DNA of 25,477 nucleotides from a virus, in IMG/VR virus record IMGVR_UViG_3300033994_002722, positions 1 to 25,477 of that record; one strand, given 5' to 3'. Numbering within the stretch: position 1 is the first letter of the stretch; every line of letters begins with the position of its first letter. Below are positions 1 to 21,301 of this stretch, piece after piece. The translations under genes and the position numbers were made by a program. The notes beneath the pieces were generated by a model. It worked only from the letters and a program-made list of their open reading frames with translations. It made no database searches and was not told the origin of the DNA.

Positions 1-1169
1 TGTGGGACAACCGCATCCCAATCCTCGTGCTACCGGAAACGCCCGATCGCCTCAGTGAGCGGCTGGCTCAATGGCTGAAGGATCACCTCCAGCAGCGCCG
101 GAATGCCGTGCGCTTCCTTTTGCCGCGCGCTGATGCACCGCCTTTGTTTACTGACCCGACACTGCTCTTCCACGCACGTGCCGTCGTCAAAGCGACAGAA
201 TGGCAAGGCCAGGGTCCCGAATACGGCAAGCTCCGAACCAAGTACCAGAAGCTGCTGCGGGACGCGCTGAAGGATCGCTACGACCGCTTCGCGATTCTCG
301 CGGCCTGGGACAATCAAGCACCCGCGAAGTCTCGCTTCGCTGAGGAAAAGCTGAAGGTCCGCGGAAGCGAGATTCCGAAGGCGATGGACGAAGTTATCGC
401 CACCGACCTGTTCGAGCCGGAAGCCTTCGCCGATTACGCTATCGAAGCTGCTAAAGGGGCGGCTTCGGTCAAGAAAGTGCTCGACGAGCTTAAGGAGCCC
501 CGCCCAGCACCGGCTGATACCATCCCCTGGCTTGGTGACGCGCTAATGAAGGAGAAGCTCATCTCCGTCTGTGCGCAGGGTAAGATCACGATCAACGTGC
601 AGGATCGGGAGCGCCTGGAACGCCGGCCCGGCGAAGAGATCAAGGACGCCTTCACGCGCCTGCGCGGCAAGCTGCCGGATGGCAAGCAGTTAGAGGAGGT
701 GATCCTTGGCCTGCCAGGCGCAGGCGCCGCCACTCATGGCGCTGCTCCGCAACCCGGCCCGAGCAATGGCGCCACGTCGGATGCAAAGCCGTCGCCTGGG
801 GCAGGACCTGGCGGCACTGGGACTGCCCCGCTATCAGGCGGCAACCCTGGCGGAACGACGTCACCGCCGCCCGGCGTTGGCGAGGGTCCACCCGGGAACA
901 TTTTTGGAAACGGTGGCGCCGAGAGCTTCGGTGGCAGCAGCACCACACCGCCAAAGCCAAAGATACGGTTGGAGGCACCTAAGCCCACATCAGGCCTCAA
1001 CCTCGCAGGCCAGCTTGAGATGTGGTCGATAACACCAGCCACGCCGGTTCAGTTGGTGACCATCACGCTCGAGGCCGCGACCGGGGCTCAGCTCAAGAAG
1101 CTGCTGGAGAAACTGCCGGATGGCATGATCTATGGCCTGGCGCTGGATCGCGAGGACGGCTCAGCATGA
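1..1169 (+). CDS. DUF499/BrxC-PglY-like ATPase, C-terminal part (5' end outside window)
   Basis: The reading frame is open from the left edge (first full codon at base 3, reading W-D-N-R-I-P-I-L-V-L), so the GTG at 27 is an internal valine, not a start. About 389 residues are visible, ending in TGA at 1167-1169. No Walker motif is seen; in this family it lies further N-terminal. The visible part has a charged helical domain, then a Gly/Pro/Ser/Thr-rich linker (bases about 715-945), then a small C-terminal domain of about 60 residues. DUF499 proteins are large P-loop ATPases found in BREX (BrxC/PglY) and related methylase-linked defence loci. The assignment rests on the style of the C-terminal region and on the neighbours (PglZ, DUF1156 methylase, helicase). 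It overlaps the next gene by ATGA. Upstream sequence would settle the family. Confidence 0.6.
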   Translation, partial: WDNRIPILVLPETPDRLSERLAQWLKDHLQQRRNAVRFLLPRADAPPLFTDPTLLFHARAVVKATEWQGQGPEYGKLRTKYQKLLRDALKDRYDRFAILAAWDNQAPAKSRFAEEKLKVRGSEIPKAMDEVIATDLFEPEAFADYAIEAAKGAASVKKVLDELKEPRPAPADTIPWLGDALMKEKLISVCAQGKITINVQDRERLERRPGEEIKDAFTRLRGKLPDGKQLEEVILGLPGAGAATHGAAPQPGPSNGATSDAKPSPGAGPGGTGTAPLSGGNPGGTTSPPPGVGEGPPGNIFGNGGAESFGGSSTTPPKPKIRLEAPKPTSGLNLAGQLEMWSITPATPVQLVTITLEAATGAQLKKLLEKLPDGMIYGLALDREDGSA

Positions 1170-2167
1170 CGCTGCCCCTTCCGTTGTTGCGCCAGCTCCA
1201 GCAAGCGACACCGGCGCAAGCCTGGGCTGCGATCGCGGAGCATGCGCTTCATGTCTGCGATACGGCCGGCGAGGGCAAGCCGCTCGATGCGGCCGCAAGG
1301 CTGCGCGACGAGGGCTTGCGCGCACTGGATGCCTGGATGTCCGGTGCTGGCTGGGATCTTTGGGCAGAGTTCGGTGCCGCAATGCCACGTACGGCTGATC
1401 GCTTGGTCGAGTGGTGGAGTGCAGTTCCTCCAGGCCTCGGCGCTGCGGTCCTCATCCTCGACGGATTATCGCTGCGCGAACTTCCCTTGCTGCGTCAGGG
1501 CGCTGCAGCTCATGGCTTTGCTGTCGTCAGCGTAGCGACGACAGGTGCGGAATTGCCAGGGGACACCAATGCCTTCGCTCAGGCTTTGGGAGTCAGCAGC
1601 CGCGGCACGCTCGCCAATAACCACCCGCCCGGCAGTTTACGTCTCGCTGGAGCCAGCACCGAGGTGGCAGGCCTGCCTTGGGCGGATTGCGCTGCGCTCG
1701 TGAAGGCACAACCCCGGTGGCTGTTCTGGCATGAATGGCCAGATACGCGCTTCCACAACGGCAGCAGCTTTCAGGCGCTTGCCAAAAATGCCGAAGAGAC
1801 GTTTGCCGACGCTGCCTTCTGGGCCTTCATGCGCCGCCTCGCCACGGGACGGCGGCTGCTGGTCACATCCGATCATGGCTACGCCCATATCGGAAGCTTT
1901 CAGGATACCCACGACGACCAAAAGGCTTGGCTTCGCGGCGTGTTTGGTGGGGGCCGTACGGCCGCAGATGGTGAGACGGGCGCGTGGTCTCCACCGCTTG
2001 CCCTGGCAGTGGATGGCCGCCAGGCGCGGGTACGCCTGCCCCTCGGCCGGCGGAAATGGCCGGTGCCGGGCGGCAATGCAAGCCTTAGCCATGGCGGTCT
2101 GACTCTGCTCGAAGCCTTGTCGCCCTTCATTGAACTCAGACTTCAGGATGCTTCGAATGCCACGTGA
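1166..2167 (+). CDS. pglZ-like: Compact PglZ-domain (alkaline phosphatase superfamily) protein
   Basis: This 333-aa protein starts at ATG 1166, which overlaps the TGA of the preceding gene (ATGA); the frame is open further upstream but that region lies inside the previous gene. It shows the PglZ/alkaline-phosphatase layout. ILDGLSL has a metal-binding Asp at residue 99, VTSDHGY has Asp236-His237, and SHGGLTLLEAL near the C-terminus has His309. PglZ proteins are core parts of BREX and Pgl systems, with metal-dependent phosphatase or nuclease activity proposed. At 333 aa it is much shorter than typical BREX PglZ (about 650-900 aa) and is essentially the catalytic core. It sits between the ATPase and methylase genes, suggesting one co-translated complex. 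Its 3' end overlaps the methylase start. Confidence 0.8.
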   Translation: MTLPLPLLRQLQQATPAQAWAAIAEHALHVCDTAGEGKPLDAAARLRDEGLRALDAWMSGAGWDLWAEFGAAMPRTADRLVEWWSAVPPGLGAAVLILDGLSLRELPLLRQGAAAHGFAVVSVATTGAELPGDTNAFAQALGVSSRGTLANNHPPGSLRLAGASTEVAGLPWADCAALVKAQPRWLFWHEWPDTRFHNGSSFQALAKNAEETFADAAFWAFMRRLATGRRLLVTSDHGYAHIGSFQDTHDDQKAWLRGVFGGGRTAADGETGAWSPPLALAVDGRQARVRLPLGRRKWPVPGGNASLSHGGLTLLEALSPFIELRLQDASNAT

Positions 2168-5100
2168 AGGCGCCACTGTTTCCGCCAAGGATAGACTTAC
2201 CCAGGAGATCGCGAAGGCGGTTGGTGCCGGTCGCCCCATGACGATGGAGACGGTGGACTTCTCCGATCCCAATCGACCGAAGACCTGCATAGAGGTGGAT
2301 TTCCCGATCCTGGCGATCAATCAGATCGCGCAGATCGAAGGCAATGCCGGCAAGCCGATTTACCAGATGTCGAAGTGGTGGGCGCGTCGGCGGTCCTCGG
2401 TGTTCCGCGCCATGCTTCTGGCCAGCGCGATGAAGGCGCCGGACGACCCCGCCCAGGCGGCGAAGGTGGTGTGGGATGCCTACTACGCCAACCATCAGAA
2501 GAAGGGGGCGCTGCAGCACCTTAAGGTAGCGGACATCTTCATGGGCGGCGGCACCACGCTGGTGGAAGGATCGCGCCTGGGCATGGAGATGTCTGGCGTG
2601 GATCTGAACCCAGTAGCCTGGTTCGTCGTGAAGCAGCAGTTCGCCAAGCCCGACCTTGACGCGGTGAAGCGGCTGCTGGCCGATGTCGAGGCCGAGGTAA
2701 AGCCGCAGATCATGCCCTTTTATGCCTGCGAAGGTCCGGGTGGTGAGAAGGGAGTCTGGACACGGCTGGCCGATGGCAAGGTCATGGGCGACGACTTCGA
2801 CCCGCTGACGCTGACGCCGGATGAGCGGAAGGGCTTTTCCTATGCCGGCCCGGAGGCGATTTACACCTTCTGGGCCAAACATGGGCCTTGTCAGGTGACC
2901 GGCTGCGGTCATCGCACGCCGATCATATCCAGCAACATCATGGCGGTGAAGACGTTGACGGTGAAGCGCTGGCCACAGATGTGTGAGGCATGCAGCCAAG
3001 CCTTTGATGTTGAAGACGAGGCAGCGCGCATGGCGCCCGATGTGCCGCTTGTGCTGGCACCTGGAGAACGCGCTTTCACTGTTCCGGACCGAGCGGGACG
3101 AGTGAAGTGTCCCTCTTGCGGGCATGCCAAACAGATTAAGCTAATCGGCAAGGGTGAGCGCAAAAAGGTTGATCTCGCGTTGATCGTTGATCCTCAATGG
3201 GTCGCGGGAGCACCCCGACTGGATGCTAATGGTATCCCATTTGGGGGCGCTGCACAGGATGATGCACAGTCAACTACTGCTTGGAACACGGCCCGAGCGC
3301 AAACAAGCTGCCTAATCGAGCTTAGAGGCAAGGTAGAGCGCCTCAAACGAGATCGAAAAACTGGAGAAATGAAACTCGAGCGAGATTGGCCCGAAACTAT
3401 TGAGCATCCTGTCACCAAGGTAGAGGTAAGAGTAGGGGAAGCATCAAAAACAAAAGGCTCAAAGAAAGGGCACTTCGCCTGTGAGGCTTGCTCAACCTCT
3501 CAAGATGTTATGGAGACCGTGAAGAAGACTGGCAAAACTGGTCAGTTTGCTGCCTATGCAGTTCAGGGTTTTTCGCCGCAGCTCGCCAAGAGTGATTCGG
3601 CCTATGGTGGGCGCTTCTTTGTTGCCTTTGACGACGCGGCGGCGAATAGACTGAATGCCGCGACAATCGAGTGGGAGCGCCGTAAAGACGCCGACCTGAA
3701 GGATTGGTGGCCGCGATCTGAGATACCTATTGGTGCGGAAATCGGACCTCATGACGTAGAGGGACATGGCTATCGATTCTGGTGGACGATGTTTAATCCA
3801 CGCCAACTTCTTGTACATTCAATTTTGTTGAAATCCATCATGAGCACTGGAAATCATGAGCCGTATACGAGAGAATTTGTTCTTGGGGCATTCCAGCAGT
3901 ATTTGCGCAATCAAAATATGTTTTGTATATGGGATCGGGAATACGACAAGCTTTCACCGCATCTAAGCAATAGTAATTTTCATCCGAAGTCTACGCCTGT
4001 AGAAAATTCGGTATTTGGTGCCCTTGGCCGTGGCAATTGGCTCTCCTGCGTAGGAAGTGTGTTGGAGGGCGCTGAATGGGCACAGGCTCCATGGGAGCCT
4101 GTCGTGGTTCAGCAGCTAGTTAGAACACATCCCGCTTTAGCTAAACTGACAACAGGAAAGAGCGAGAAGGTTTGGCCCGGCGATGCCATGTCGATCCCTC
4201 GACTGGCGGTCGGATCGGCTACGAATCTAACAGAAGAAAGCACTTCGTATCTTGATTTAGTTATTACAGATCCGCCCTTCGGAAATCTGCTTCAGTACTC
4301 TGAGATGGCTGACTTTTTTTATGTCTGGCTTCGGCTAGCATTAAAAAATTCATACCCTCTCGAGTTCACACCTGAATACACGCCAAAAACTCTTGAGGCG
4401 GTTGCGAACTCAGCGCGGCAACCCGGACCGGGAGAGGCTGATGCTTTCTACCAGCGACTGCTCACGCAGGCCTGGCGCGAGGCGCATCGTGTTCTAAAGC
4501 CAGGCGGCACACTCGCATTTACCTTCCATCATAGCGAGGACGATCCATGGGTCGCCGTACTCGAATCACTCTTCGATGCCGGCTTTTATCTTGAGGCGAC
4601 CTATCCTATCCGCTCCGATGAAACGAAGGGCGAGGGCGAATTCGGTAGCAAGAAGATTGAGTACGACATCATCCATGTCTGCCGGAAGCGCACAGAAGCT
4701 CCCACCGCGGTTTCTTGGGCACGCATGCGCCGCGAAGTACTTGAGGATGTACGACAACTCCAAAATCTTCTGGAGAGTCACGCAAAAGAGGGGCTACCAG
4801 CAGCCGATCTCGCTGTCATTAAGCGCGGTAAGGCGCTTGAGTATTTCTCCCGCCACTATGGCCAGGTGTTCAAGAACGAAGGCGAAGCCATCAGCGTCAA
4901 GGAAGCGATCCTTGGCATCAATCAGATCATCGATGAGGGCGGCAACGCCGCTGACATCCCGCCGGTCGAGGCGGAACCCTATACGCGCCAATTTCTACGC
5001 ATCTTCAACGACAATGCCGAGCAGAAGCGCGACCAGATGCAGAAATTCCTCCGTGGCACCGGCAGTAGCCCAGACGAATTTGAGGCGCGAGGCTGGTGCT

Positions 5101-5441
5101 CGGAGAAGGCCAAGGTTTTCCATCTGACCTCACCGCTTGAGATCGCGCAGTCCTGGCACAAGCGCCAGAAGCGAAAGCTCGATAGTGATTACGACCAAGC
5201 CATGGTGCTGATCGGCGCCTGTCACCCTGGTACCGGCCTAGACGTCAACGACACGCTTCGCAATCCGAACTTCAAGCCGCATCCGGCCTTGAGGTCGCTG
5301 CTGGAGTGGTTTGAGCGTCGCGGCCACAATCAAACTATTCGTGACGCTGCGAAACTGGCCAAGCTGCGCTTCGATGCATGGCAGAATTCCCAGCCGAAGA
5401 AGCCGGCCAATACCCAAATGTCACTGTTCGGAGGGAGTTAA
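2157..5441 (+). CDS. DUF1156-type DNA (adenine-type) methyltransferase
   Basis: This is a protein of about 1094 aa. I chose ATG 2157 because AGGA at 2145-2148 lies 8 nt upstream; ATG 2148 and TTG 2130 are in-frame alternatives. The N-terminus matches DUF1156 style (CIEVDFPI, then GNAGKPIYQMSKWWARR). SAM-binding motif I is around residues 126-145 (DIFMGGGTT, then GVDLNP). The catalytic motif IV DPPF is at 705-708. Between them are paired cysteines suggesting zinc ribbons: C245/C250 with C276/C279, and C318/C321 with C442/C445. DUF1156 proteins are amino-methyltransferases of phage-defence loci, probably marking self DNA. The middle (about 3120-4450) is AT-richer than the ends, and may be a swapped recognition region. 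The target sequence cannot be read from the protein. Confidence 0.85.
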   Translation: MPREGATVSAKDRLTQEIAKAVGAGRPMTMETVDFSDPNRPKTCIEVDFPILAINQIAQIEGNAGKPIYQMSKWWARRRSSVFRAMLLASAMKAPDDPAQAAKVVWDAYYANHQKKGALQHLKVADIFMGGGTTLVEGSRLGMEMSGVDLNPVAWFVVKQQFAKPDLDAVKRLLADVEAEVKPQIMPFYACEGPGGEKGVWTRLADGKVMGDDFDPLTLTPDERKGFSYAGPEAIYTFWAKHGPCQVTGCGHRTPIISSNIMAVKTLTVKRWPQMCEACSQAFDVEDEAARMAPDVPLVLAPGERAFTVPDRAGRVKCPSCGHAKQIKLIGKGERKKVDLALIVDPQWVAGAPRLDANGIPFGGAAQDDAQSTTAWNTARAQTSCLIELRGKVERLKRDRKTGEMKLERDWPETIEHPVTKVEVRVGEASKTKGSKKGHFACEACSTSQDVMETVKKTGKTGQFAAYAVQGFSPQLAKSDSAYGGRFFVAFDDAAANRLNAATIEWERRKDADLKDWWPRSEIPIGAEIGPHDVEGHGYRFWWTMFNPRQLLVHSILLKSIMSTGNHEPYTREFVLGAFQQYLRNQNMFCIWDREYDKLSPHLSNSNFHPKSTPVENSVFGALGRGNWLSCVGSVLEGAEWAQAPWEPVVVQQLVRTHPALAKLTTGKSEKVWPGDAMSIPRLAVGSATNLTEESTSYLDLVITDPPFGNLLQYSEMADFFYVWLRLALKNSYPLEFTPEYTPKTLEAVANSARQPGPGEADAFYQRLLTQAWREAHRVLKPGGTLAFTFHHSEDDPWVAVLESLFDAGFYLEATYPIRSDETKGEGEFGSKKIEYDIIHVCRKRTEAPTAVSWARMRREVLEDVRQLQNLLESHAKEGLPAADLAVIKRGKALEYFSRHYGQVFKNEGEAISVKEAILGINQIIDEGGNAADIPPVEAEPYTRQFLRIFNDNAEQKRDQMQKFLRGTGSSPDEFEARGWCSEKAKVFHLTSPLEIAQSWHKRQKRKLDSDYDQAMVLIGACHPGTGLDVNDTLRNPNFKPHPALRSLLEWFERRGHNQTIRDAAKLAKLRFDAWQNSQPKKPANTQMSLFGGS
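5430..5437 (+). promoter_or_regulatory. Strong Shine-Dalgarno fixing a TTG start
   Basis: GGAGGGAG sits across the end of the methylase gene, 7 nt before TTG 5445. There is no ATG or GTG nearby in that frame, so this ribosome site is the main reason to accept the TTG start of the 167-aa protein. Confidence 0.75.
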
Positions 5442-5444
5442 GCG

Positions 5445-5948
5445 TTGCCGATCTTCGAACCCTGGGCACGAAACGGTCTGACTTTGCTCTGGGGGGCTGA
5501 CGCGCTGCGCGACCTTGCCGAACCCAGTCAGATTCTGCCGCTGCGTGTACTCTTCGGCTGGCGCGGTGATTGGCCCGCAGACCTGCCGGCCAATGGCGGC
5601 CGCACGCTCGTCGCAACCGGGTTGGAAGCGACCCTGGATTGCCTGGTACAGGATGAGGCTGAGGCTTGGCTTGCTTCTGACCTGCGCGACCTCATTCTTG
5701 GCTTTCAGCAGGCTTATGAAGGGCAGCGTGCCCTCGTGCTATGGCTGCCAAGCGGCCAGCAGCGCGTCACTTGTGACCCAGCGACCGACGCCTGGCTTTG
5801 GACGACAATAGACAACAGCAAGCTGCCCCTCGGCCGGCTACTATTCTCAGGCGCTGCCTCTGATGCGCGCGCCATCTCCCCGCCCGGTTGGCGCGGTGCA
5901 CAAGAAGGCCCCGGCCTGATAGGCCTACACCAGGCGCGGCTTTCCTGA
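5445..5948 (+). CDS. Unrecognised 167-aa protein of the methylase/helicase operon
   Basis: It starts at TTG 5445, three bases after the methylase stop, with a strong ribosome site, and ends in TGATG shared with the helicase start. Strict coupling on both sides argues for a real gene whose product is needed in fixed ratio with its neighbours. I do not recognise the family. It is a soluble, Leu/Trp-rich alpha/beta-looking protein (FEPWARNGLTLLWG near the N-terminus, RALVLWLPSG around residues 95-104) with no signal peptide, membrane segment or metal motif. Its size and its partners resemble BrxB (DUF1788), the small partner of PglZ in BREX, but no motif supports equating them. Confidence 0.75.
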   Translation: MPIFEPWARNGLTLLWGADALRDLAEPSQILPLRVLFGWRGDWPADLPANGGRTLVATGLEATLDCLVQDEAEAWLASDLRDLILGFQQAYEGQRALVLWLPSGQQRVTCDPATDAWLWTTIDNSKLPLGRLLFSGAASDARAISPPGWRGAQEGPGLIGLHQARLS

Positions 5949-8752
5949 TGGGCGAAACGCTTGAGATGTTGCCCGGCGTGCGGGTGTCGCATGCGGAGCT
6001 GGGCGAAGGCGTGGTGCTGGAGGCGTCGCGGGATGGCTATCTCCGCGTCTTCTTCGGCTCCGGTGAGCGCCGGGTGCCACTGGCCGCGCTGCGTCCTGCA
6101 CTCTCGCGGGCAGATCGCATACTGGCCAATGTCGCCGGCACACCGGAGCAATTGCGCAGCATCCGCCTGACCTTGCAGGCGCATATGCTGCCCTTGATGG
6201 AAGGTGCGGCCGCGCTGACCTCTGCGCGGATTGACCTGCTGCCGCACCAGGTGGTGCTGACCCACCGCGTGGCCACAGCAAGCCCGCGCCGCTTCCTGAT
6301 CGCCGATGAGGTCGGCCTGGGCAAGACCGTCGAGACCGCGCTGATCCTGCGCGAGCTGGCAAGCCGTGGGGAGCTCGAGCGCGCCCTGATGGTCGTGCCC
6401 GCCGGCCTGGTGAATAACTGGCACCGCGAATTGAATGAGGTCTTCGGACTGGATTTCGAGGTCTTCGGCAGCGAAGGCGATGTGACCGATCGCAAGACCA
6501 ATGCCTTCGCCAAGCATCACCGCCTCATCGCCAGCATCGACACGCTGAAGCGGCCTGCGCGCGTGAAGCGCCTGCTGGAAGCCCCGCGCTGGGACCTCGT
6601 CGTCTTCGATGAAGCGCATCACTTGACGGCGGTCCAGGAAGGGAAGCGTGTCCGCCGCACGGAAAACTACAAGCTGGCGGAGGCGCTGAAGGATCACGCG
6701 CGAGACCTGCTGCTGCTGTCTGCCACACCGCATCAGGGGCACCATTTCCCATTCTGGATGCTGATCCAGCTCTTGAATCCGACGTTGTTCCGCAGCGTGG
6801 ACGAGATGGTGACGCAGCGGCACCGGCTTTCGACCGTGGTCTTTCGGCGCACCAAGGCGGATGCATGCCGACCGGATGGCTCGCCGCTCTTTGCGCGGCG
6901 CTGGGTGCACACCGAATCCTTCGTGATGTCCGACGCCGAGCGAAAATTCTACGAGGCTTTGCAGCGCTACCTTCAGGATGGCTTTGACCTGGCCAAGCGA
7001 CAGGGCGGTAAGGGCCGTGCGCTCGGCTTTCTGATGGCGATCTTCCAGAAGATTGCGGCGTCGAGCTTTGCTGCCGTGCGCCGAACCCTGCGTCGCCGCA
7101 TGCTCGCGCTGACGATCCATGAAGCGGTGCTGCGCGACCGCGCCCTCGATATCGACGGACGCGACTCTCTTTACGGGGAGGCACGGGCGCTCATTCACGA
7201 GGAATACGGGCTGCCGCAGGATCACGTCGGCCGTGGTCAGGTGGACCAGGTGCTGGCAGATTTGAAGCTCAGGCTGGTGCGTCGTCTGGACAATGAGGAG
7301 GAGGCGCTTGCGGAGGTCTCCGATCCATACGGGACTGAAGCTGCGGCTCAGTCTGCGGAAGACCTCGCCAGCCTGGCGGTGTCGATCCACCTGCCGGAGG
7401 AGCGGCTGCGCATCGCTGAGATGCTGGCGACTTTCCCAGCGGCGCGCGAGACCAAGATTGCGAAGCTGTTGGCTGGCCTCGGCGTGCTGTGGCGACAGAA
7501 TCCACAGGAGAAGGTGGTGATCTTTGCCACCTACCTCGGCACCGTCGAGCAGATCGCGCGCGACATCGAGGCGGAGTATCCGGGCCAAGGTGTCGCCGTG
7601 CTCCGCGGCGGTGACCACGGCGCGAAGTTGGCGGCGGAACGCCGGTTTCGGCAGAAGGATGGCCCGCGCGTTCTGGTCTGTACCGCAGCGGGGCGGGAAG
7701 GCATCAACCTCCAGTTCGCCCGCGTCCTGTTCAACTTCGATCTGCCCTGGAATCCGATGGATGTGGAGCAGCGCATCGGTCGCATCCATCGCTATGGCCA
7801 GCGCGATACAGCACAGGTCTACAATCTTATTCTGTCGGACACGATCGAGGGACGCATCTTCTTGATGCTTGATCAGAAGCTTACCGAAATTGCGCGCGCG
7901 CTCGGTAAAGTGGACGAGGCCGGCAATATCGCGGAGGACTTACGGGCGCAGGTGCTGGGCCAGCTATCTGAGCGGCTGAATTACGATAGGCTGTACCAGA
8001 CAGCGCTATCAGACCCAGAGCTTCGGCGAACCAAGGTTGAGCTCGACGCCGCACTGGCAAATGCCAGTGAGGCAAGGGAGGTGGTGTTCGAGCTTTTCCA
8101 GGACCTCGATGGCTTTAGCCTGGAGGACTACCGGCCGTTTTCTGATCTCACCGGCAGTGTGGGCCGCATCCACGACTTCTTGGCTGCTGCTCTGGCCGAG
8201 CAGGATTGGGCACTTAGGAAGGCATCGGATGGGCTGTTCGAGGTTGTCGATCAGACTGGTACGAGGGTGGCGCGGTTCACGGACGACCGCGAACGCGCCA
8301 TGGCGACGGATGGCCTAGGACTCCTCGGGTTGGATCATCCCCTTGTCGCTAGTCAGCTTGCGAAGTGGCGAAGCACGCCGCCCGAAAGCTTGGGCTCAAG
8401 CGTACGCCAAGCTGGCGGCGAGCGCGCCGTATTATGCTGGTGGCTGTTCGAAGGGGCCACGACGCAGGGAGACCGAAAGACGCAGGTGCTCACGCTTGCG
8501 ATAAACCCAGGCGGTACCCGGTTGGTGGGCATGGAACGATTGCCCGAACGGATGCTTGAACGACCGCCAGCGGATGGCTTCCTAGACTTGGCTGAGCGTC
8601 GGCGCTTCCTGGCCGCGTATGCCGAACCGGCGCTGGAACGGGAGCTCCACCATCGTGGCCTATTGGCGCCGGGAACCTCATTCTCAGCAGAGCTCCTGGG
8701 CTGGCTGGAAGTCAGTGCTGATGATCTGATACGGGGAGATCAGACCGAATGA
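5948..8752 (+). CDS. SNF2-family DEAH helicase/ATPase (DrmD-like)
   Basis: This 934-aa protein starts at ATG 5948, overlapping the upstream stop as TGATG; a longer in-frame start at TTG 5888 would lie inside the previous gene. A small SH3/KOW-like beta domain comes first (residues about 8-50). Then follow Walker A DEVGLGKT (120-127), Walker B DEAH (221-224), LLLSATPHQG, and the C-terminal helicase lobe with GREGINLQ (about 580) and the arginine-finger motif RIGRIHRYGQ (about 610). The last 300 residues are not recognised. SNF2-like helicases of this kind occur as DrmD in DISARM and in other methylase-linked defence operons, where they are thought to translocate on invading DNA. It is coupled to a downstream stub at 8749. 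Confidence 0.9.
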   Translation: MGETLEMLPGVRVSHAELGEGVVLEASRDGYLRVFFGSGERRVPLAALRPALSRADRILANVAGTPEQLRSIRLTLQAHMLPLMEGAAALTSARIDLLPHQVVLTHRVATASPRRFLIADEVGLGKTVETALILRELASRGELERALMVVPAGLVNNWHRELNEVFGLDFEVFGSEGDVTDRKTNAFAKHHRLIASIDTLKRPARVKRLLEAPRWDLVVFDEAHHLTAVQEGKRVRRTENYKLAEALKDHARDLLLLSATPHQGHHFPFWMLIQLLNPTLFRSVDEMVTQRHRLSTVVFRRTKADACRPDGSPLFARRWVHTESFVMSDAERKFYEALQRYLQDGFDLAKRQGGKGRALGFLMAIFQKIAASSFAAVRRTLRRRMLALTIHEAVLRDRALDIDGRDSLYGEARALIHEEYGLPQDHVGRGQVDQVLADLKLRLVRRLDNEEEALAEVSDPYGTEAAAQSAEDLASLAVSIHLPEERLRIAEMLATFPAARETKIAKLLAGLGVLWRQNPQEKVVIFATYLGTVEQIARDIEAEYPGQGVAVLRGGDHGAKLAAERRFRQKDGPRVLVCTAAGREGINLQFARVLFNFDLPWNPMDVEQRIGRIHRYGQRDTAQVYNLILSDTIEGRIFLMLDQKLTEIARALGKVDEAGNIAEDLRAQVLGQLSERLNYDRLYQTALSDPELRRTKVELDAALANASEAREVVFELFQDLDGFSLEDYRPFSDLTGSVGRIHDFLAAALAEQDWALRKASDGLFEVVDQTGTRVARFTDDRERAMATDGLGLLGLDHPLVASQLAKWRSTPPESLGSSVRQAGGERAVLCWWLFEGATTQGDRKTQVLTLAINPGGTRLVGMERLPERMLERPPADGFLDLAERRRFLAAYAEPALERELHHRGLLAPGTSFSAELLGWLEVSADDLIRGDQTE

Positions 8753-8862
8753 CGAAGCGGGCTGCTGTTCCTTTCGATGCGGCCTTGTGCGCCCGGGCTG
8801 GCCGCCATTATGAAGGTGACTGGTTAGAAATTTTGCTGGCCGAAAACGCTGACCTCAGGTGA
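8749..8862 (+). pseudogene. 37-aa coupled stub, probable 5' remnant of a lost operon gene
   Basis: ATG 8749 overlaps the helicase stop (ATGA), just as the other genes of this operon overlap, and codes for MTKRAAVPFDAALCARAGRH and 17 more residues before TGA at 8860-8862. Codon use is still GC-rich like the operon. The sequence turns AT-rich straight after. The simplest reading is the N-terminus of a sixth operon gene cut off by recombination or deletion. It could instead be a genuine micro-protein. Confidence 0.5.
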
Positions 8863-8931: not shown

Positions 8932-9534
8932 ATGAATTTTCAGGATTTTCAAAACGCGTTTCCAAAGATTAGTAGCCATGCTCCCCAAGGCTTGGCCGAG
9001 TCCTTCGCCATAGATGAATTCAAGAGGTTCATGTCAATTGGTGGGACTATCCTCAGGTCCTTCCCAAATGTATCTAACAATTTAGATGAACGAAGGATGG
9101 CTCATATACTGATACGTTCTCTACTAGAGAATTTTTTCTGGATTATTTATATTTTTGAGGGAAACACTAAATCGTCGTGGAACACGCGGTTTGACGAGTA
9201 TCTTGATGGATTCAAATTAGAATACGCGAAGCTTTATAAAGACCCTGATTTACCCTTTAAGGCAGACATTGAGCCTGCCCATCAATCATGGGAAACTCTA
9301 AAAAAGCCCATGGATATAAGAAGCGTCCTTGCACAAGTGAGGAACATTCACGGAAATCGCCTGGATTTTTTGTATTTCTTATACCGTATCACTAGTTTCG
9401 ACACGCATGCCAAAACGATGGAGTCTATATTTTCTGCGGCCTTTGCGAAGAAGTGCAATTTTCCGTACGTTAAGATCGATAATGCCATAGATCTTATGGC
9501 TGATGAATATTTAAGCGTATGGAAAAAATTGTAA
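8932..9534 (+). CDS. Unknown 200-aa protein, AT-rich, possibly DUF5677/HEPN-like
   Basis: ATG 8932 has an excellent ribosome site (AAAGGAGG, 8919-8926, 5 nt upstream). The product is mostly helical and rich in Phe, Lys, Asn and Ile, with RSLLENFFWIIYIFEGN around residues 65-80 and DTHAKTME near residue 160. I do not recognise the family with confidence. The Arg...Glu helix near residue 65 and the overall helical pattern resemble DUF5677-type proteins, which are often found near defence genes. Base composition (about 35% GC in a hand-counted 60-base line) differs sharply from all neighbours and points to separate transfer. It is 69 bases beyond the stub and convergent with the DUF262 gene. Confidence 0.65.
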   Translation: MNFQDFQNAFPKISSHAPQGLAESFAIDEFKRFMSIGGTILRSFPNVSNNLDERRMAHILIRSLLENFFWIIYIFEGNTKSSWNTRFDEYLDGFKLEYAKLYKDPDLPFKADIEPAHQSWETLKKPMDIRSVLAQVRNIHGNRLDFLYFLYRITSFDTHAKTMESIFSAAFAKKCNFPYVKIDNAIDLMADEYLSVWKKL

Positions 9535-9667: not shown

Positions 9668-9733
9668 TCACCCCACTCACCTTTTCACCACTTGCACATG
9701 CAGCGCCGCCGCAGGCAAATCCAACGTAGAAAG
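9668..9733 (-). repeat. Direct repeat copy A (decayed spike 3' end)
   Basis: Ungapped 66-base alignment with 12010-12075 gives about 56 identical positions. In the best 50 bases (9684-9733) there are five differences, four of them silent in the spike frame and one Val to Leu. The two copies bracket the DUF262 gene in the same orientation. Confidence 0.85.
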
Positions 9734-9847
9734 CCATATAGTCCGCGACAACCTTGTAATAGATCCTCGAGCTTGTTTTGAAATACTCGACGCATAAATC
9801 TGGCAGAAGGGATGTAAATGTTCTGATCGTATACCAATAACGCTCAT
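9677..9847 (-). pseudogene. Relic of a tail-spike gene 3' end
   Basis: The minus-strand frame starts at ATG 9847, 8 nt after the DUF262 stop, and codes for 56 residues. The last 17 (LSTLDLPAAALHVQVVKR minus the first) match the spike C-terminus LSTVDLPAAALHVQVVKR almost exactly. Upstream of that the match fades. In the relic, a stop codon stands where the spike has its second Arg of KRRVG. The original stop position (GTGGGGTGA) is still present downstream. This indicates decay of a once-coding copy rather than chance similarity. The first part of the frame is probably meaningless. Confidence 0.75.
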
Positions 9848-9855
9848 GCTGTAGC

Positions 9856-11736
9856 CTAGGCGTTATTTATGCTTTTCGCGGCATGCATGGACCACAAGGC
9901 CTCGAGTGTGACGCTGTTTCCCTCGGTGAGGGAAGTCATCGCTGCGACAACCAATTTGGCGCGATCACGCAAGAATTCGCTGAAATCTGCTGTAAGCTTT
10001 TGCTTAAACGCCGCTTCTTCCATGCCTGCATAATGAGCCTTGGATAGCAAATCGAATGAAATCAAGTGGGATTTCAAGCGCTCTCGAACAACGTCAGCAT
10101 CCGCCCATTGAACACGTTCTTTCAGATATTCCAGCGGATCCTTGCGCCCAATCATGCGGTTGGTCTTCCAGGTGATGAGTGCGCAGTTCAGTGCCAAATA
10201 GCTGGATATTCCAGCTTCTGAGAGCAAGGCATCTGGAAAGACGTGGTGATACTCACGCTTTTGAATGCTATCGTAGTTCGCGCTCTTGTGGTCCGCAAAA
10301 TCGATCGCGCCCAGATAGGTCGTTACCGCCAAGATCGCGCGAGCTTCTATACCTGCCGCCTTTGGCCAGCCGGCTGTCAACAATGAGTCTACATCGGCCA
10401 GCGGAAACTCAGAGCGATTCAGCGCAGGCACCACCGTTAAATCGGCATCGGAAAAGCTCGGATTTTTCAACAACGCCTTGATAGCCTTAAAGTCGGCAAA
10501 CGCGCGCGACGCCGCCGTGTTTTCATAGCGGTCGGTGAAAAAGGCAGACCACAAGTAGCGGCGCAGAAGCTTCTCCGCCTTGGCAAGGAAATCGCCGTGA
10601 TCCGGAATCAACTCATAGGCAGCCGCGATCACCGCTAAAACTGCATTGGTCGGCAATCGCGCCTCGTCGAATATGCGCTGGCCGTCCAAGAACGATGCCA
10701 TGCGCTCAAGCCCACTCTCGAGCTTCGGCCAATTGTCCAGCAACTGCTTTTTGTCCATTTCTATCATACCGCGCGTATTAGGCAGTTTCTCCTGCAGCAA
10801 CGCCGAGGTGGATAGAATGAGATCGGCAACATTGCCGTAGCGTCCAGCCGTCGGGCATTTATGCGTCAGGCTGGCCTCAAGTGCGTGGAGCGACTTCTCT
10901 GCCACGCTTTCTACCTCAGCCACGATGATGTCGTAGAGCGACAGAGGCTTGCTATTGGTGTTCATATTAATGAACACCTGCAATGCCACATCCTTACTGG
11001 TATCGGCCGGTAACGATAGATATGGCAGATTGAAGTGCGTTACGCGTTCGCGCAGGATGGTGATCTCCGCTTTAATCTTGTCGCGTGTAGCCGTGTACGC
11101 CTTGTATTTGGCCAGTGCGTCAGGGTCGGTATCCGCCGGTTCCAGTGGTTTGGTTGCATCATTCAGCCACATGTCGATTTCAGTCGAAATGTCGCCAGGT
11201 CGAAGTAGCGAGACGGGCAGCAAACCGCGCCTGAAACACTGGGCCGGTTCCTCTGCCCAGCGCGGCATACGCAGCTGATTCTTATTTACCCAGCGCGGAA
11301 TGCAACGGATTTCCATCTCGGAGCCAGACTTGCTTTCCCCGCGGTCAAACTGCGGCAAGTAGACGAAAAAGGTCTCCCACTCGTAGTTGTTATGCATCGA
11401 ACGCCAGAACGCCGTCAGCCTTTGCTGGCCATCCAACAAGTGCTGAGTCACGGTGCCTGGTGTGACGGGCTCTGAGCTTACGATGAAACGCGACCCGAAT
11501 TTTTCCTGCCCGGCGACTTCAAGTGCCAAGGTCACGCCCACAGGCAGATTGTTGATGATGGTGTTAAGAAAGCTGGCGATTCGCCCTCGATCCCAAGCCT
11601 CAAAGCGCTGAAAACGTGGCAACTTGACCATGCCATGCTGAATGTTCTGAAACCAAACGCCAAGGGTTCTGTCTTGGGCCTTGCTCGACTGCTGCATGAT
11701 GCTCATTTCCGCCCTCGCATTCTTTTTGCCGTTCAT
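9856..11736 (-). CDS. DUF262 / HNH (DUF1524-like) GmrSD-type restriction protein
   Basis: The product is about 626 aa from ATG 11736, with GGAAG a few bases upstream. TTG 11778 would add 14 residues, and ATG 11706 would also keep the domain. The N-terminal DUF262 domain shows LPRFQRFEAW and the hallmark DGQQRLTAFW (DGQQR near residues 102-106), then FINMNTNSKPLSLYDI. The C-terminal part has REYHHVFPDALL (His-His near 498-499), the signature of the DUF1524/HNH nuclease half. GmrSD-like proteins are type IV-like enzymes that cut modified phage DNA using nucleotide hydrolysis by the DUF262 half. A single-chain fusion is common. It lies just beyond the tail-spike gene on the same strand, a usual site for cargo genes in prophages, and is flanked by copies of the spike 3' end. 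Confidence 0.85.
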   Translation of the reverse strand: MNGKKNARAEMSIMQQSSKAQDRTLGVWFQNIQHGMVKLPRFQRFEAWDRGRIASFLNTIINNLPVGVTLALEVAGQEKFGSRFIVSSEPVTPGTVTQHLLDGQQRLTAFWRSMHNNYEWETFFVYLPQFDRGESKSGSEMEIRCIPRWVNKNQLRMPRWAEEPAQCFRRGLLPVSLLRPGDISTEIDMWLNDATKPLEPADTDPDALAKYKAYTATRDKIKAEITILRERVTHFNLPYLSLPADTSKDVALQVFINMNTNSKPLSLYDIIVAEVESVAEKSLHALEASLTHKCPTAGRYGNVADLILSTSALLQEKLPNTRGMIEMDKKQLLDNWPKLESGLERMASFLDGQRIFDEARLPTNAVLAVIAAAYELIPDHGDFLAKAEKLLRRYLWSAFFTDRYENTAASRAFADFKAIKALLKNPSFSDADLTVVPALNRSEFPLADVDSLLTAGWPKAAGIEARAILAVTTYLGAIDFADHKSANYDSIQKREYHHVFPDALLSEAGISSYLALNCALITWKTNRMIGRKDPLEYLKERVQWADADVVRERLKSHLISFDLLSKAHYAGMEEAAFKQKLTADFSEFLRDRAKLVVAAMTSLTEGNSVTLEALWSMHAAKSINNA

Positions 11737-11908
11737 ACTCTTCCGTACGACCTCTGGCTCGACGTAGAGATCCTCCAACCCTTTCCGTCGTCAAATCATC
11801 TGAGACCGAGCGGAGGGGCTCATAACCGAGGACTTGGCCCATCGAAGACTAAGGTTAGGCTGCGTTTTGGTGATGCATCAAGCGGTAACGCTATCCAACT
11901 GCCCCCCT

Positions 11909-12009: not shown

Positions 12010-12075
12010 TCACCCCACCCTTCGCTTCACCACCTGCACATGCAGGGCCGCCGCAGGCAGATCCACCGTGGAAAG
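12010..12075 (-). repeat. Direct repeat copy B (intact spike 3' end)
   Basis: This is the last 66 bases of the functional spike gene, including its stop. It matches 9668-9733 as described for copy A. Homology stops at 12075/9733 and at the stop codon. Confidence 0.85.
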
Positions 12076-13851
12076 GCTGACATTCCGTGCTGTGATGCGC
12101 ACCTTGTCGTTGGACCAGACATGGCAATCCAGAATAAAAGCGATGCTGCTGGTATCGAGCGATGCATCGGCGAAATCCCCGCGCCGCGCGCCGGGCACCG
12201 TCACATCCGCATTCGCCACTGCGCCTGGGCCAAGGTTCGGCAAATCCCAACTGATGCCGCTCGCCATCACCAGTGTACGCGTGCCCGCGGGCAGCGCCGG
12301 GCAGCCATAGAGCACCGCCGGCGCATCTTCGGGCAGGCCGTAAAGGCGCAGCGCTTCCAATTCGATCTGCCCGTCAAAGCCAATGATCCCGATTTGCGCA
12401 AAGGCAACCTCCGGCCCCAAGCGTAACGTCTGGCGGCGATTGAGGTCGCTCTCCTGCATCACTGCCCCCGCCTGCCAGGTTTTGGAGGTCGGCGCCCATT
12501 GCAGCGTCGTGCCGGATGCCAGCGCATCGCCGGCGATGTTCTCGCGCACAATGCCGGCGCCATTAAAGCAGCGTAGACAAAGCCGTCCGCCATCGGCGCC
12601 CCCCACCAGCCAATGCGCCAACGCAAATTCCTTGGCATGCGTGGTCTGCACGACAAACCCAACCCCGCGATTGGGGTTCAGCAGCAGGCCGCGCGCGGTG
12701 GGGGTGATGCCGTTCAACCCATTCCAGGAAAGCGCCGCCATGGTGGTCTCGGCGGTGGTGGAAGTGGCCATAATGCAGGCGCCTTCGACACCAATCTCGG
12801 TGCCGCTATGCCAAAAGGCTGCCGCACGGATATTCGGGATATTGGCGAGCAGCCTGGTCAGGCGCGATGCCGGTGCGCGGTGGCGGTTGAATACCGCATT
12901 GCCCGCACGGGTCGCGCTGGGTGTGTAATCCACCCCGATCGCATAGCTCTGCGCCCAGGCGATGTCATATTCGCAATCGGTCGCAGCGGCGGTGTGCCGC
13001 GCGGCAAAGGGGGAACACCCCTCCATCCGCATATTGCGCGCGATGATGGCGGTGCCATTCGTCTCATTCAAAAACGGAATAGCGATATTGGGATCAAGCT
13101 GCCGCAGCTCGAAATTCGGCGCGTCAAAGACATGACGATTGTGATTGTTATAGGCATCCGCAGCGCCGCGCGAAAACCGCACGCCAAAGCGGTCCAGCGC
13201 GGGATTGATACCCGTGCCACAGGCGAAATGCCCGCCGTAATATCGGATGGAGGTATTCCAGGCCGTGGCAGTCGCGGCATGCGCATCAATGCCATAGCGG
13301 TTGTTCAGAATGCGGCCCAGGAGCAGCGTGGTGTCCTCAAAGCCGCGCCCGTCGCCCAGTGTGCGCAGCCCGATGGCGAACCCGGATACCAGGCGCAGAT
13401 CAATCAACGAGGAATCAAGATTGCATGCCAGGATGCCGATATCATCCTCGCTCAGCCAGTCGGATTGGATCTGCCGCGTCACTTGCAGGCCGAGATAGAG
13501 CTTTTCCCCATTGCGCGTGGTGCCGCCATCACCCAGCGTCAGCACGGTCGCGGGTGCATTGGTCGCCCCGGTGTATTGAATGACGCCCTGCATGATCAGC
13601 CCGCGCGCGCCGCCGCCCAGCGTGACGCCAGCATCCACGCGCCAGGTGCCGGGCGGGATCACTGCGAATTTCTTGTCTGCCGCCGCACGATCAAAACACG
13701 CCTGGATGGCCGCGCGATCATTCGCCGCGCCATCACCAAGCCCGCCGAAGTCAAAGGGTAGCACCGCTTCGCGGTCGCGCAGATACTTCGCCAGATCAGT
13801 CTTGGAGATATTCTGCCCCAGCACCAGTAGATCATCGATGCGTGCGGCCAT
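12010..13851 (-). CDS. Tail spike / fibre protein with pectate-lyase-like beta-helix
   Basis: This is a 613-aa protein from ATG 13851, 10 bases after the J-like gene stop, with GGGG upstream. Residues 30-75 have the pectate-lyase-3 signature style: GGLGDGAANDRAAIQACFDRA, then IPPGTWRVDAG. Short Gly/Asn/Asp-rich repeats of a right-handed parallel beta-helix follow. The C-terminal 150 residues look beta-rich and may fold or trimerise the spike. It probably binds or degrades the host surface polysaccharide. It is the last gene of the tail operon, the position at which receptor-binding proteins and cargo genes usually vary. Its last 22 codons are duplicated beyond the DUF262 gene. Confidence 0.75.
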   Translation of the reverse strand: MAARIDDLLVLGQNISKTDLAKYLRDREAVLPFDFGGLGDGAANDRAAIQACFDRAAADKKFAVIPPGTWRVDAGVTLGGGARGLIMQGVIQYTGATNAPATVLTLGDGGTTRNGEKLYLGLQVTRQIQSDWLSEDDIGILACNLDSSLIDLRLVSGFAIGLRTLGDGRGFEDTTLLLGRILNNRYGIDAHAATATAWNTSIRYYGGHFACGTGINPALDRFGVRFSRGAADAYNNHNRHVFDAPNFELRQLDPNIAIPFLNETNGTAIIARNMRMEGCSPFAARHTAAATDCEYDIAWAQSYAIGVDYTPSATRAGNAVFNRHRAPASRLTRLLANIPNIRAAAFWHSGTEIGVEGACIMATSTTAETTMAALSWNGLNGITPTARGLLLNPNRGVGFVVQTTHAKEFALAHWLVGGADGGRLCLRCFNGAGIVRENIAGDALASGTTLQWAPTSKTWQAGAVMQESDLNRRQTLRLGPEVAFAQIGIIGFDGQIELEALRLYGLPEDAPAVLYGCPALPAGTRTLVMASGISWDLPNLGPGAVANADVTVPGARRGDFADASLDTSSIAFILDCHVWSNDKVRITARNVSLSTVDLPAAALHVQVVKRRVG

Positions 13852-13861
13852 GGCAGCGCCC

Positions 13862-15856
13862 CTAGATTGCGGTAGCGGTGACCGGCCCGATCAGCGCGGA
13901 GACATTACCCTCGGCCGAGACAGAGCGCAGCCAATACCAGCGCGCATCGGCGGCATTCAGCCCTAGCCGATCCCAGGGCAGCGCGGTGGGCTCGGCGACC
14001 AGCTTTGTGGCTTGGGCAAGATTGGCAGTCTCACCCTCAAACACCTGCAAGCGCGTGACCTCTGGCGGCATGATCCCGGAAAGCCGCACACCACCCGCAA
14101 TGCCAAGCGCTGCTGCTGCGGTGATGCCGCCAGGAATGGCAGCCTCCTGCCAGCCGGATACCGCGCCACTGCGGGCCACGGCGCGCAGCCTGAACGCCGT
14201 CGGCTCACCGGTGGCGATGGATGCCGCGGTGGCACTCAGCGCCCCGCCATAACCCTGCCAGGCGGCCACAGAGGCGGGACGGAATTCCAGTTCATAGCCG
14301 GACAAATACGCACTGCCGACCGCCGCCCAGGAAAGGCTGAGCGCGGTGAAAGCACTGCCCGCCGGTGTTTCCACGCTGATCGTCGCCGGCGCGGCAATTA
14401 CGCCCGGGTTGGGCAGCACCACCGATGGGCTATCGCCCGTCGCGCGTTCATCCACCGCCGGGTCCCAATCCCAAATCGCGGGGTCTTCCTCAGCCAAGGT
14501 CAAATCCACGCCACCATCGGGTGCCAGCCGCCAGCCCGTCACTCGCGCCGGAAAGGGCCCCAGCCGATCAAGCGCCAGCGTCACGCTATCCCATGGACGC
14601 AGCCGCAACGCAGAAAGATTTGCCGGAAAGGCCACCTCGCGCTGGCGGCGATTGCGTTCCAATTCAGCCTTCATGATGCGCTGCACGGTCGCGACCGAGG
14701 TGGTCAACGGAAATTCCATGCTGCGATAGATTGCCTCACCCCCATCCTCGGCCACGTAATTCGCGGCGAGCAGCGGCGGCGCATCGGTTGGTTGCCAGTT
14801 CTTGGCCGGGTCCACATAGACCGCGCGCACGCCGTTAAAGAGATCCCTGCGCGGCCGGCTGCCCTGGATGGTGACATCACCGCGCAGCGCATTGGCATTG
14901 AGCGTCGTGACAGGCAGCGCGGGGCCACCCGCATGGATAAAAAACCGCCCGCCCGAGACCACCAGCGCACCCGCCATGGCGGCGACAAGCTTGCGGGTGA
15001 TGGCGATCTTTCCCTCACCAAGCGAGACACGGCCATTGACCGTATAGCGCTTTTCATAAACGCCGGCGCGCGTGCCGATCAGCTCATCACAGATATTGGC
15101 AGCAGCGATCAAAGCGGGGATGTCGATATCATCCCAGGATGCCTTCCAGCCAAAGGGGGCCGTCAGGTACCAGGCAAGGCAAAGCGCCGGATTGTCCGAC
15201 CATCCTGTCGTATTGCTGCGCGGGTCCAAAATGGTATTCGCGCCCTGCACCAGGGCTGCGATGTTGGGCGGGCCGGAGGGAAAGGCCTGGGCGGTGATCT
15301 TTAGGCGCACCGCGACATAGGCACGCCCGCAGCCACGATGGTTGGCGGTCCATTTGCCGCCGGTCTCGGCGATCAGATTTGCATTCGCCACCTGATCCGC
15401 CGCGCCCAAATGGCGATCAATCCGCACCAAGCCGGCAAACTTCGCATCGGTCGCCAGCGTATCGCCGAGCCAGACATCGCCAATGGATTGCACACGATGC
15501 GCGGCGAGCACGATGACGGCGTAGAAATACCCATCGGCGCGACCCTGATCATCGGTCGCGGAATGGATGAACACCATGGGCCCGCCCACCTTGATGCGGC
15601 CAAAGACGAGTTGATGTTCCGTCAGAGGTTGCCGAAAGGATTGCGTGCGCCCCGCGCCGGGGGCGGTGGTATTATCGACCGCGCGGCTGGGAATAGCGGG
15701 GGATGAGGGCGGGCGTGAGGGAAAGACCGAACCGCCAACGCTGGTAATGGCAAAGGCAGTGCCAGCACCCACCAAGGCGCCGATGATTCCGCCACCGACT
15801 GCGGCTGAGGCCACCGCACCAACGGCGACGGCGATGATCGGGATGGCGACGGGCAT
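13862..15856 (-). CDS. Tail tip / host-specificity protein (lambda J / GTA gp15-like)
   Basis: This 664-aa protein starts at ATG 15856, directly after the preceding stop. It opens with a hydrophobic Ala/Gly-rich stretch (residues about 5-42), as J-type proteins often do. Then comes the tip domain (LTEHQLVFGRIKVGGPMVFI; ALCLAWYLTAPFGW) and, around residues 490-580, a fibronectin-III-like beta domain. J proteins close the tail tip and contact the receptor. At 664 aa it is short against lambda J (1132 aa), so the central hub may be reduced, with host recognition moved to the spike gene that follows. Confidence 0.75.
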   Translation of the reverse strand: MPVAIPIIAVAVGAVASAAVGGGIIGALVGAGTAFAITSVGGSVFPSRPPSSPAIPSRAVDNTTAPGAGRTQSFRQPLTEHQLVFGRIKVGGPMVFIHSATDDQGRADGYFYAVIVLAAHRVQSIGDVWLGDTLATDAKFAGLVRIDRHLGAADQVANANLIAETGGKWTANHRGCGRAYVAVRLKITAQAFPSGPPNIAALVQGANTILDPRSNTTGWSDNPALCLAWYLTAPFGWKASWDDIDIPALIAAANICDELIGTRAGVYEKRYTVNGRVSLGEGKIAITRKLVAAMAGALVVSGGRFFIHAGGPALPVTTLNANALRGDVTIQGSRPRRDLFNGVRAVYVDPAKNWQPTDAPPLLAANYVAEDGGEAIYRSMEFPLTTSVATVQRIMKAELERNRRQREVAFPANLSALRLRPWDSVTLALDRLGPFPARVTGWRLAPDGGVDLTLAEEDPAIWDWDPAVDERATGDSPSVVLPNPGVIAAPATISVETPAGSAFTALSLSWAAVGSAYLSGYELEFRPASVAAWQGYGGALSATAASIATGEPTAFRLRAVARSGAVSGWQEAAIPGGITAAAALGIAGGVRLSGIMPPEVTRLQVFEGETANLAQATKLVAEPTALPWDRLGLNAADARWYWLRSVSAEGNVSALIGPVTATAI

Positions 15857-20317: not shown

Positions 20318-20479
20318 GTGATTCTCCGTTTGGATGATTCTTGAAGCTGACCCGCTCATGCCGGAGCGGTAAAGGCGAGCGCGCAAGGGCTCAGGCCGAC
20401 CATTTGCGCGGAGCAAGTCCAAGTTGCTGATGCACCTAGCGCGAAGCTCGACCAAAGCTTGCATACGTGCTTCTCAGCC
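20318..20479. other. Divergent gap at the left junction of the nuclease/helicase cassette
   Basis: This separates the minus-strand chaperone from the plus-strand nuclease, so it should hold two divergent promoters. I see no convincing -35/-10 pair in either direction, no long palindrome, and no direct repeat shared with the right junction beyond an 8-base match expected by chance. Confidence 0.4.
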
Positions 20480-21301
20480 ATGATAGATCCACGGTGGGGG
20501 GCCAAGTCCATTCCTATTTCCACTGTTTACCTCAGTGTCGAGGGCCTGTGCGGCGGCGAGCAATGGCACGTCGACGACTTCGACGCGCTCGCGGACCTAG
20601 TGGCGGTGGTGATGGTCGGCAGGGCAAAACTCGTCGCGGGAATCTTGGAAGGGGCGGAGATCGGGCCGATCGTAACCAGTGCGGCCATGAAGGCTCGCCT
20701 GAAAAGTAGCTTGCTGCTTGAGGAGGGCAAGGACACTTGGCACCGGGACGGCCTGCTGTTCGAAACCATCTGCTGGATCATCGCGCGGAGAGGTTCTGCG
20801 CCGAACGAGGTGCTCTCTGATCCACATCGTAGGGCCACAAACCAGGGCGCGGATTCGGTCAAGGTCGTCTTCGATCCCGGGGCGCGAGAGCTCGAGAAAG
20901 TCACCGTCTATGAGCAGAAATGCTCCGACAAACCACGGGACAAGTTCCGCGATGAGGTGCTGCCGGCGTTCACGGATTGGATCACCGGCACACGAGATGA
21001 TGAGTTGCTCCAGATCGCGATCGGACTCTTGGCCCGCTTCAACCTAACGGACGCCGAGCACAATCGTGCCTACGCGCGTCTCGCCCTCGCGCCGCGCCCA
21101 ATTGCATTTCGCGCGGCCCTGACGGTGAGCCCCGCTACCTTTCCGCAGGGGAAATGCAAGAAGGTCTTCAAGGGTTACGACTGTCTGGCTGTGGCCCTGG
21201 ATGCGCGGTTCGGCGACACTTTCCCGCTGGACGACATGCGCGCGTGGTTCGAGGCGTTCGCCGCGGCGGTCTGGGCCAAGATCGAGGCGTTCAATGTTTG
21301 A
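20480..21301 (+). CDS. hamA-like: PD-(D/E)XK-like nuclease, HamA-like (Hachiman)
   Basis: 273 aa from ATG 20480; TTG 20459 would add 7 residues, and neither has a strong ribosome site. LLFETICWI (Glu95), GADSVKV (Asp125) and VYEQKCS (Glu145-x-Lys147) in order form a PD-(D/E)XK-type active site, as in DUF1837/HamA. The gene overlaps the next by 8 nt (ATGTTTGA), and the next is a Ski2-like helicase; this pairing defines Hachiman (HamA nuclease, HamB helicase) and the related AbpAB. In Hachiman, HamB is thought to sense damaged or abnormal DNA and release HamA for DNA degradation. The DUF1837 call is by motif and context. Another nuclease-helicase pair is possible. Confidence 0.65.
   Translation: MIDPRWGAKSIPISTVYLSVEGLCGGEQWHVDDFDALADLVAVVMVGRAKLVAGILEGAEIGPIVTSAAMKARLKSSLLLEEGKDTWHRDGLLFETICWIIARRGSAPNEVLSDPHRRATNQGADSVKVVFDPGARELEKVTVYEQKCSDKPRDKFRDEVLPAFTDWITGTRDDELLQIAIGLLARFNLTDAEHNRAYARLALAPRPIAFRAALTVSPATFPQGKCKKVFKGYDCLAVALDARFGDTFPLDDMRAWFEAFAAAVWAKIEAFNV

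Follow-up and report, generated by a model that had tools for sequence, protein, structure and literature searches.

What kind of defense system is encoded by five adjacent genes of the IMG/VR virus record IMGVR_UViG_3300033994_002722, whose products recall parts of BREX, DISARM and Hma? A preliminary description read them as a hybrid of BREX and DISARM and guessed that they might define a separate subtype. We analyzed the window, that is, the whole stretch of DNA, which at 25,477 bases is also the whole IMG/VR record.

In January 2026, Rakesh and Krishnan defined BREX-Related (BR) systems, which are centered on a DUF499 ATPase (PMC12839542), and the operon matches one of these, the already named Type-3 BR defense system. 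As published, Type-3 BR combines a PglZ that is stand-alone and active with a DUF499 ATPase, a DUF1156 methylase and a nuclease-free helicase resembling BrxHII; an inactive STAND protein is present in 82% of taxa, and the system is reported from 569 taxa (PMC12839542). The following sections describe the operon, its relatives and its possible mechanism, and then weigh it against the known systems.

Organization of the operon

Five plus-strand genes lie head to tail within positions 1-8752 (Table 1). The preliminary description had called these genes correctly and had described them as translationally coupled, but its end position for the feature, 8862, overshoots by about 110 bases. The ATPase and PglZ genes share an ATGA (1166-1169), the PglZ and methylase genes overlap at about 2157-2167, and the genes for the 167-aa protein and the SNF2 helicase overlap at 5948. 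The methylase likely starts at 2157, with alternatives at 2130 and 2148.

Because the edge of the record cuts the ATPase gene, the N-terminal ~540 amino acids of the protein lie outside the record. The full-length relative from Siccirubricoccus phaeus (944 aa) has a Walker A motif in its initial part, and the ATPase of another homologous locus (L002, Aminobacter pSR6) matches the Pfam DUF499 profile. At the thresholds used, the ATPase fragment, PglZ and the 167-aa protein matched no family in Pfam, NCBIfam or PADLOC. The methylase has intact FMGGGTT and DPPF motifs and is 31-63% identical to its relatives. The helicase has an intact Walker A motif (GLGKT) and DEAH box, and its Pfam domains are helicase domains only, with no nuclease family.

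Table 1. Features of the operon in the window (positions in bases)
Feature	Position	Strand	Basis
DUF499-type AAA+ ATPase, C-terminal 388 aa	3..1169	+	80% identity to Siccirubricoccus phaeus homologue, residues 540-942; operon position in 93 loci
Compact PglZ, predicted phosphodiesterase, 333 aa	1166..2167	+	AlphaFold2 fold, invariant residues
DUF1156 N6-adenine methylase	2157..5441	+	DUF1156 and N6_N4_Mtase Pfam matches above cut-off
Predicted target-recognition insert of the methylase, putative swapped cassette	2775..4450	+	~residues 200-760 counted from 2175
167-aa conserved protein, presumed iSTAND (BrxB/BrxF-like) subunit	5445..5948	+	
SNF2/RapA-type helicase, 934 aa, without nuclease domain (BrxHII/HmaA-like)	5948..8752	+	

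Conservation and distribution

An alignment of PglZ was searched against GTDB genomes and IMG/VR, yielding 88 additional loci. Since only the best 80 of 250 genome hits were taken, and all were found through PglZ, the sample is skewed toward close relatives. In this sample, with the window counted, 84 of 93 loci have the complete set of five, and 83 have it in the same order on one strand, as the preliminary description would predict; several of the loci lacking the full set are truncated by contig ends. The five genes are thus one old, widely conserved unit, beyond what chance would produce. Scans of viral contigs with the single 167-aa or PglZ protein gave no matches, whereas the alignment-based scan succeeded.

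Judging by record titles, the loci occur in Pseudomonadota, Chlorobi, Planctomycetes, Acidobacteria, Chloroflexi, Cyanobacteria and Verrucomicrobia. Exactly these five genes, ordered alike, are found in Aminobacter pSR6, Ensifer pT173c and Candidatus Tenderia, and haloarchaeal plasmids carry a related ATPase-PglZ-methylase set. When plasmids were searched with tblastn, the 167-aa protein retrieved 37 records and PglZ retrieved 43. In PLSDB, the locus is shared by 34 plasmid records from Klebsiella, Enterobacter, Citrobacter and Raoultella; the one such plasmid that was examined has a KPC carbapenemase gene aboard. The system is widespread, on phage-like contigs as well as enterobacterial plasmids, yet no annotation library that we used names all of its parts, and RefSeq labels several of them hypothetical.

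A probably swappable insert in the methylase

Among the sampled loci, the nearest relative of the window operon is L007, whose helicase is 94% identical. The two methylases are 95% identical in the N-terminal part and 88% in the C-terminal part, but only 49% in the intervening insert (residues 200-760). The window insert is closer, at up to 59%, to those of far more distant systems. Its G+C content also stands apart, at 0.525 in 2775-4424 versus 0.62-0.65 in the methylase N-terminus, PglZ and the helicase. Four pairs of cysteines lie within it (residues 239/244, 270/273, 312/315 and 436/439); two 4C zinc fingers have been reported in the insert of Type-3 BR methylases, though in a subset only (PMC12839542).

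The same pattern is seen elsewhere in the sample. The inserts of L026 and L015 are 47% identical, while the rest of these operons is nearly unchanged (DUF499 ATPase 99%, PglZ 97%, small protein 98%, SNF2 helicase 97%, methylase N-terminus 100% and C-terminus 97%). Across L026/L015, L018/L073, L048/L066 and L066/L087, inserts are 47-58% identical and all other parts 92-100%. Because the insert diverges within otherwise near-identical operons, specificity appears to be exchanged as a module while the rest stays unchanged. By these comparisons, the insert is a putative target-recognition cassette that can be swapped; rapid change driven by selection could contribute to the low identity as well.

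The exchange also suggests that marking and attack probably depend on the insert as their sole sequence reader. In Type I BREX, engineering has established PglX as the specificity factor for methylation and defense (PMC11341690). Among close pairs, identity of the insert tracks weakly with that of DUF499 and of PglZ (partial r ~0.35), so these proteins may have a minor part in specificity. Natural operon pairs that differ nearly only in the insert are ready-made material on the question of a sole reader.

Predicted structure of the compact PglZ

PorX is a phosphodiesterase that acts on cyclic and linear oligonucleotides, and it is the protein that the PglZ model most resembles. An AlphaFold2 model built from 59 sequences (pLDDT 89.3, pTM 0.91) superimposes on PorX over 297 residues with a Z score of 23.0 at 3.3 A (Foldseek 5.7e-11), and on the PglZ of Acinetobacter BREX with a Z score of 18.7 (Foldseek 2.6e-8). 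In PorX, the equivalent of the compact protein is the helical linker together with the phosphatase domain. The predicted fold confirms that the 333-aa protein is a PglZ, presumably a metal-dependent phosphodiesterase with an invariant predicted metal site. Residues D99, T134, D193, D236, H237 and H309 are invariant in the 59 sequences. The stretches around D236-H237 and H309 align with PorX and with the PglZ of Salmonella BREX, and the D193 stretch aligns with the Salmonella protein; T134 would be the nucleophile.

The 167-aa protein

This gene was classified as the iSTAND component because it is the sole candidate in the operon, and the assignment is likely, by position only. A confident AlphaFold2 model (pLDDT 91.3) has AAA+/RecA P-loop proteins as its best structural neighbors, at weak Z scores of 5.0 or less, and the likeness may merely represent a common arrangement. 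Foldseek found nothing below 1e-3 for the model, and the family has no sequence relative in PDB. Comparison with six BrxF sequences by using hhalign was negative (0.2% probability), and PADLOC yielded no consistent family over all 79 family members. Among close pairs, the protein does not covary with the recognition insert (partial r 0.04), which gives no support for a role as a co-evolving sequence reader.

As a separate observation, the BrxF proteins that we fetched with NF033453 (L110-L115) retain a Walker A-like motif that is intact (GPSGSGKT or a close variant), although PMC12839542 places BrxF among inactive STAND proteins.

A possible mechanism

From the observed anatomy, conservation and exchange pattern, we infer every activity proposed here. 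The DUF1156 enzyme would methylate adenine at the site read by its insert and so mark the cell's own DNA. By analogy, the DUF499 ATPase, the small protein and PglZ would form a core like BrxC-BrxB-PglZ; BrxC is known to bind BrxB-PglZ (PMC13326643). When the reader carried by the methylase meets an unmodified phage site, the complex with the SNF2 translocase would be switched to attack, and PglZ would nick the DNA, again by analogy, since nicking is established for BREX PglZ (PMC12205998). The methylase would thus be the only reader in restriction, PglZ the effector and the small protein its regulator. We estimate a probability of roughly 80% that this is a Type-3 BR operon working by methylase-read marking and PglZ attack.

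A less probable alternative, though one deserving some weight, is abortive infection or signaling, in which the substrates of PglZ would be nucleotides or cyclic dinucleotides and not phage DNA. The closeness of the compact PglZ to PorX, an oligonucleotide phosphodiesterase, fits this idea, and so does the cleavage of cyclic oligonucleotides by BREX PglZ, a nuclease that binds BrxB; however, the BREX enzyme also cleaves plasmid and phage DNA (PMC12205998). Moreover, the operon combines a gene for sequence-specific modification with a translocase, which points to discrimination at the level of DNA.

Genes inserted within operons

In the PglZ-found sample (best 80 of 250 genome hits), about 30 of 93 loci have at least 250 bases between two core genes. 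Such gaps are most frequent between PglZ and the methylase (22 of 91) and between the small protein and the helicase (11 of 84); they are found less often between the methylase and the small protein (5 of 84) or the ATPase and PglZ (1 of 93). The extra genes within gaps are mostly of defense type. SIR2+HerA occurs in four loci (L005, L038, L053 and L074), all between PglZ and the methylase; in L005, the version on the Klebsiella KPC plasmid, it lies inside the operon at 12889-15766. An AAA ATPase with a subtilase (Peptidase_S8), present in L039 (11025-14656), L061 and L067, is likewise always in this gap. An OLD-like AAA_21 gene, found in eight loci, is always between the small protein and the helicase, and in six of these a DUF4276-type gene follows it. 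Five loci carry Schlafen AlbA_2 genes. Other cargo includes HSDR_N-like, PIN and lipase genes and, by inspection of sequences, MNT/HEPN-like pairs. The window operon has no cargo between its core genes. Locus L040 carries the OLD-like pair, whereas L018, with a helicase 97% identical, has about 10 bases in that gap; the contrast indicates recent gain or loss of cargo.

Modules of the OLD, Schlafen, HEPN and PIN types have been reported across BREX and BR systems, and standalone nucleases beside the core are described as not conserved (PMC12839542). The words SIR2 and subtilisin are absent from the text of that report. Two points go beyond it: the insert as a putatively swappable cassette and the extra genes in preferred gaps. 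We lean toward the view that Type-3 BR is a modular platform in which the cassette sets the specificity of modification as well as that of attack, and the preferred gaps (PglZ|methylase and small protein|helicase) take interchangeable secondary effectors, SIR2+HerA and AAA+subtilase pairs among them.

Phage context and neighboring genes

A siphophage-type tail module lies downstream of the operon on the opposite strand. Its proteins are 66-86% identical to those of four tail clusters of S. phaeus. In that organism, the operon is ~38 kb from the best-matching tail cluster, on its other side; both are on a 310,696-base contig, taken as the same one. In IMG/VR contigs L089, L091, L093 and L094, the operon is near genes for tail fiber, tape-measure, endolysin and primase proteins, so its presence near virion genes recurs. 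In this record, too, the operon lies near phage genes, and it may belong to the phage.

Several neighboring genes were observed in the window. Directly 3' of the operon, in a stretch of low G+C content, is a gene for a DUF5677-like protein of 200 aa (8932-9534, plus strand; 2e-5, just under the Pfam cut-off). Farther on is a GmrSD-N/DUF262 gene, resembling Type IV restriction (9856-11778, minus strand). Six of 93 loci (the window, L023, L070, L088, L089 and L091) have a gene of this type no more than 2.5 kb past the helicase, an arrangement that recalls the BREX-BrxU pairing. A direct repeat of 78 bases, 81% identical, is located at 9668-9745 and 12010-12087; it corresponds to the 3' end of a tail-fiber-like gene, duplicated beyond the GmrSD-N gene, as if a second fiber gene had received the latter by insertion or recombination. 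A second copy, though a partial one, is also present in the related tail cluster L105.

A Hachiman-like pair is encoded at 20459-24515 (plus strand), between the genes for a minor tail protein and a tail assembly chaperone, which are on the opposite strand. It consists of a 280-aa protein and a HamB-like DEAD-box helicase (PADLOC, 1.6e-36); the 280-aa partner gave no HamA match even at an E value of 1. At the same place, the related Siccirubricoccus tail clusters L106, L108 and L109 contain different cargo (1.1-3.4 kb), including, by inspection, a Ser/Thr-kinase-like gene in L108. With differing cargo at one site, this part of the tail module looks like a cargo hotspot.

Comparison with known systems

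Among the alternatives concerning ancestry, an Hma-like (Type-1 BR) system that picked up PglZ and the small gene is rather improbable; in that case the helicase would be the principal effector, with PglZ in an accessory role. The ATPase, methylase and helicase are indeed homologous to those of Hma: in PADLOC, the methylase is matched best by HmaB and the helicase by HmaA (3.5e-93), and homologues of the ATPase match HmaC weakly. However, nearly every complete locus has the small protein, every one of the 93 loci has PglZ (the criterion by which they were selected), and a helicase with no nuclease calls for an effector. Hma lacks PglZ and the small protein, and its helicase usually bears a PD-(D/E)XK nuclease; Type-3 ATPases form a separate clade (PMC12839542). 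PglZ and the small protein thus set the operon apart from the three-gene Hma loci, as the preliminary description had suggested.

A hybrid joining the ATPase, PglZ and methylase of BREX to a DISARM helicase is hardly credible: the helicase does match DrmD (PADLOC, 1.9e-78; NCBIfam, 4.7e-92, yet at half of the cut-off score), but the HmaA and BrxHI/HII (2e-91) models outscore DrmD in PADLOC, no protein scanned in the window matched DrmB or DrmC in PADLOC, the ATPase is DUF499 rather than BrxC, and the five genes form a single old unit. DISARM, which has DrmA, DrmB and DrmC besides the methylase and DrmD, does not fit the operon. What it shares with class 1 DISARM is an SNF2 helicase, distant kin of DrmD; it differs in having an ATPase and PglZ and in lacking DrmB and DrmC.

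Canonical BREX (types 1-6) has BrxC and a multi-domain PglZ, whereas the operon encodes DUF499 and a single-unit PglZ of 333 aa. Type-3 BREX has a BrxHII-type helicase, a PglZ and a methylase with a nested recognition insert, as found here, but in our operon DUF499 replaces BrxC, PglZ is free of fusions, and no BrxA is annotated beside the operon in relatives.

In contrast, four components agree with Type-3 BR, and the 167-aa protein is the candidate for the iSTAND. By its homologues, the C-terminal fragment belongs to a DUF499 ATPase, with the ATPase domain itself lying beyond the record; PglZ is stand-alone and has its active-site residues; the DUF1156 N6-methylase has a nested insert; and the SNF2 helicase has no nuclease fusion. 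The five genes fit this one named subtype, the 167-aa protein by position, which is the outcome that the preliminary description had named as its refutation, while the conservation that it required is observed: the genes do represent a distinct subtype, although not a new one. Insert swapping is not described in the published account, whose text contains no swap, recombination or shuffling (PMC12839542), and here about a third of the loci have genes inserted within the operon. The operon thus resembles Type-3 BR in its DUF499 ATPase, metal-site PglZ, DUF1156 methylase, extra small conserved gene and nuclease-free helicase, and this copy differs from the published ones in adjoining a phage tail module.
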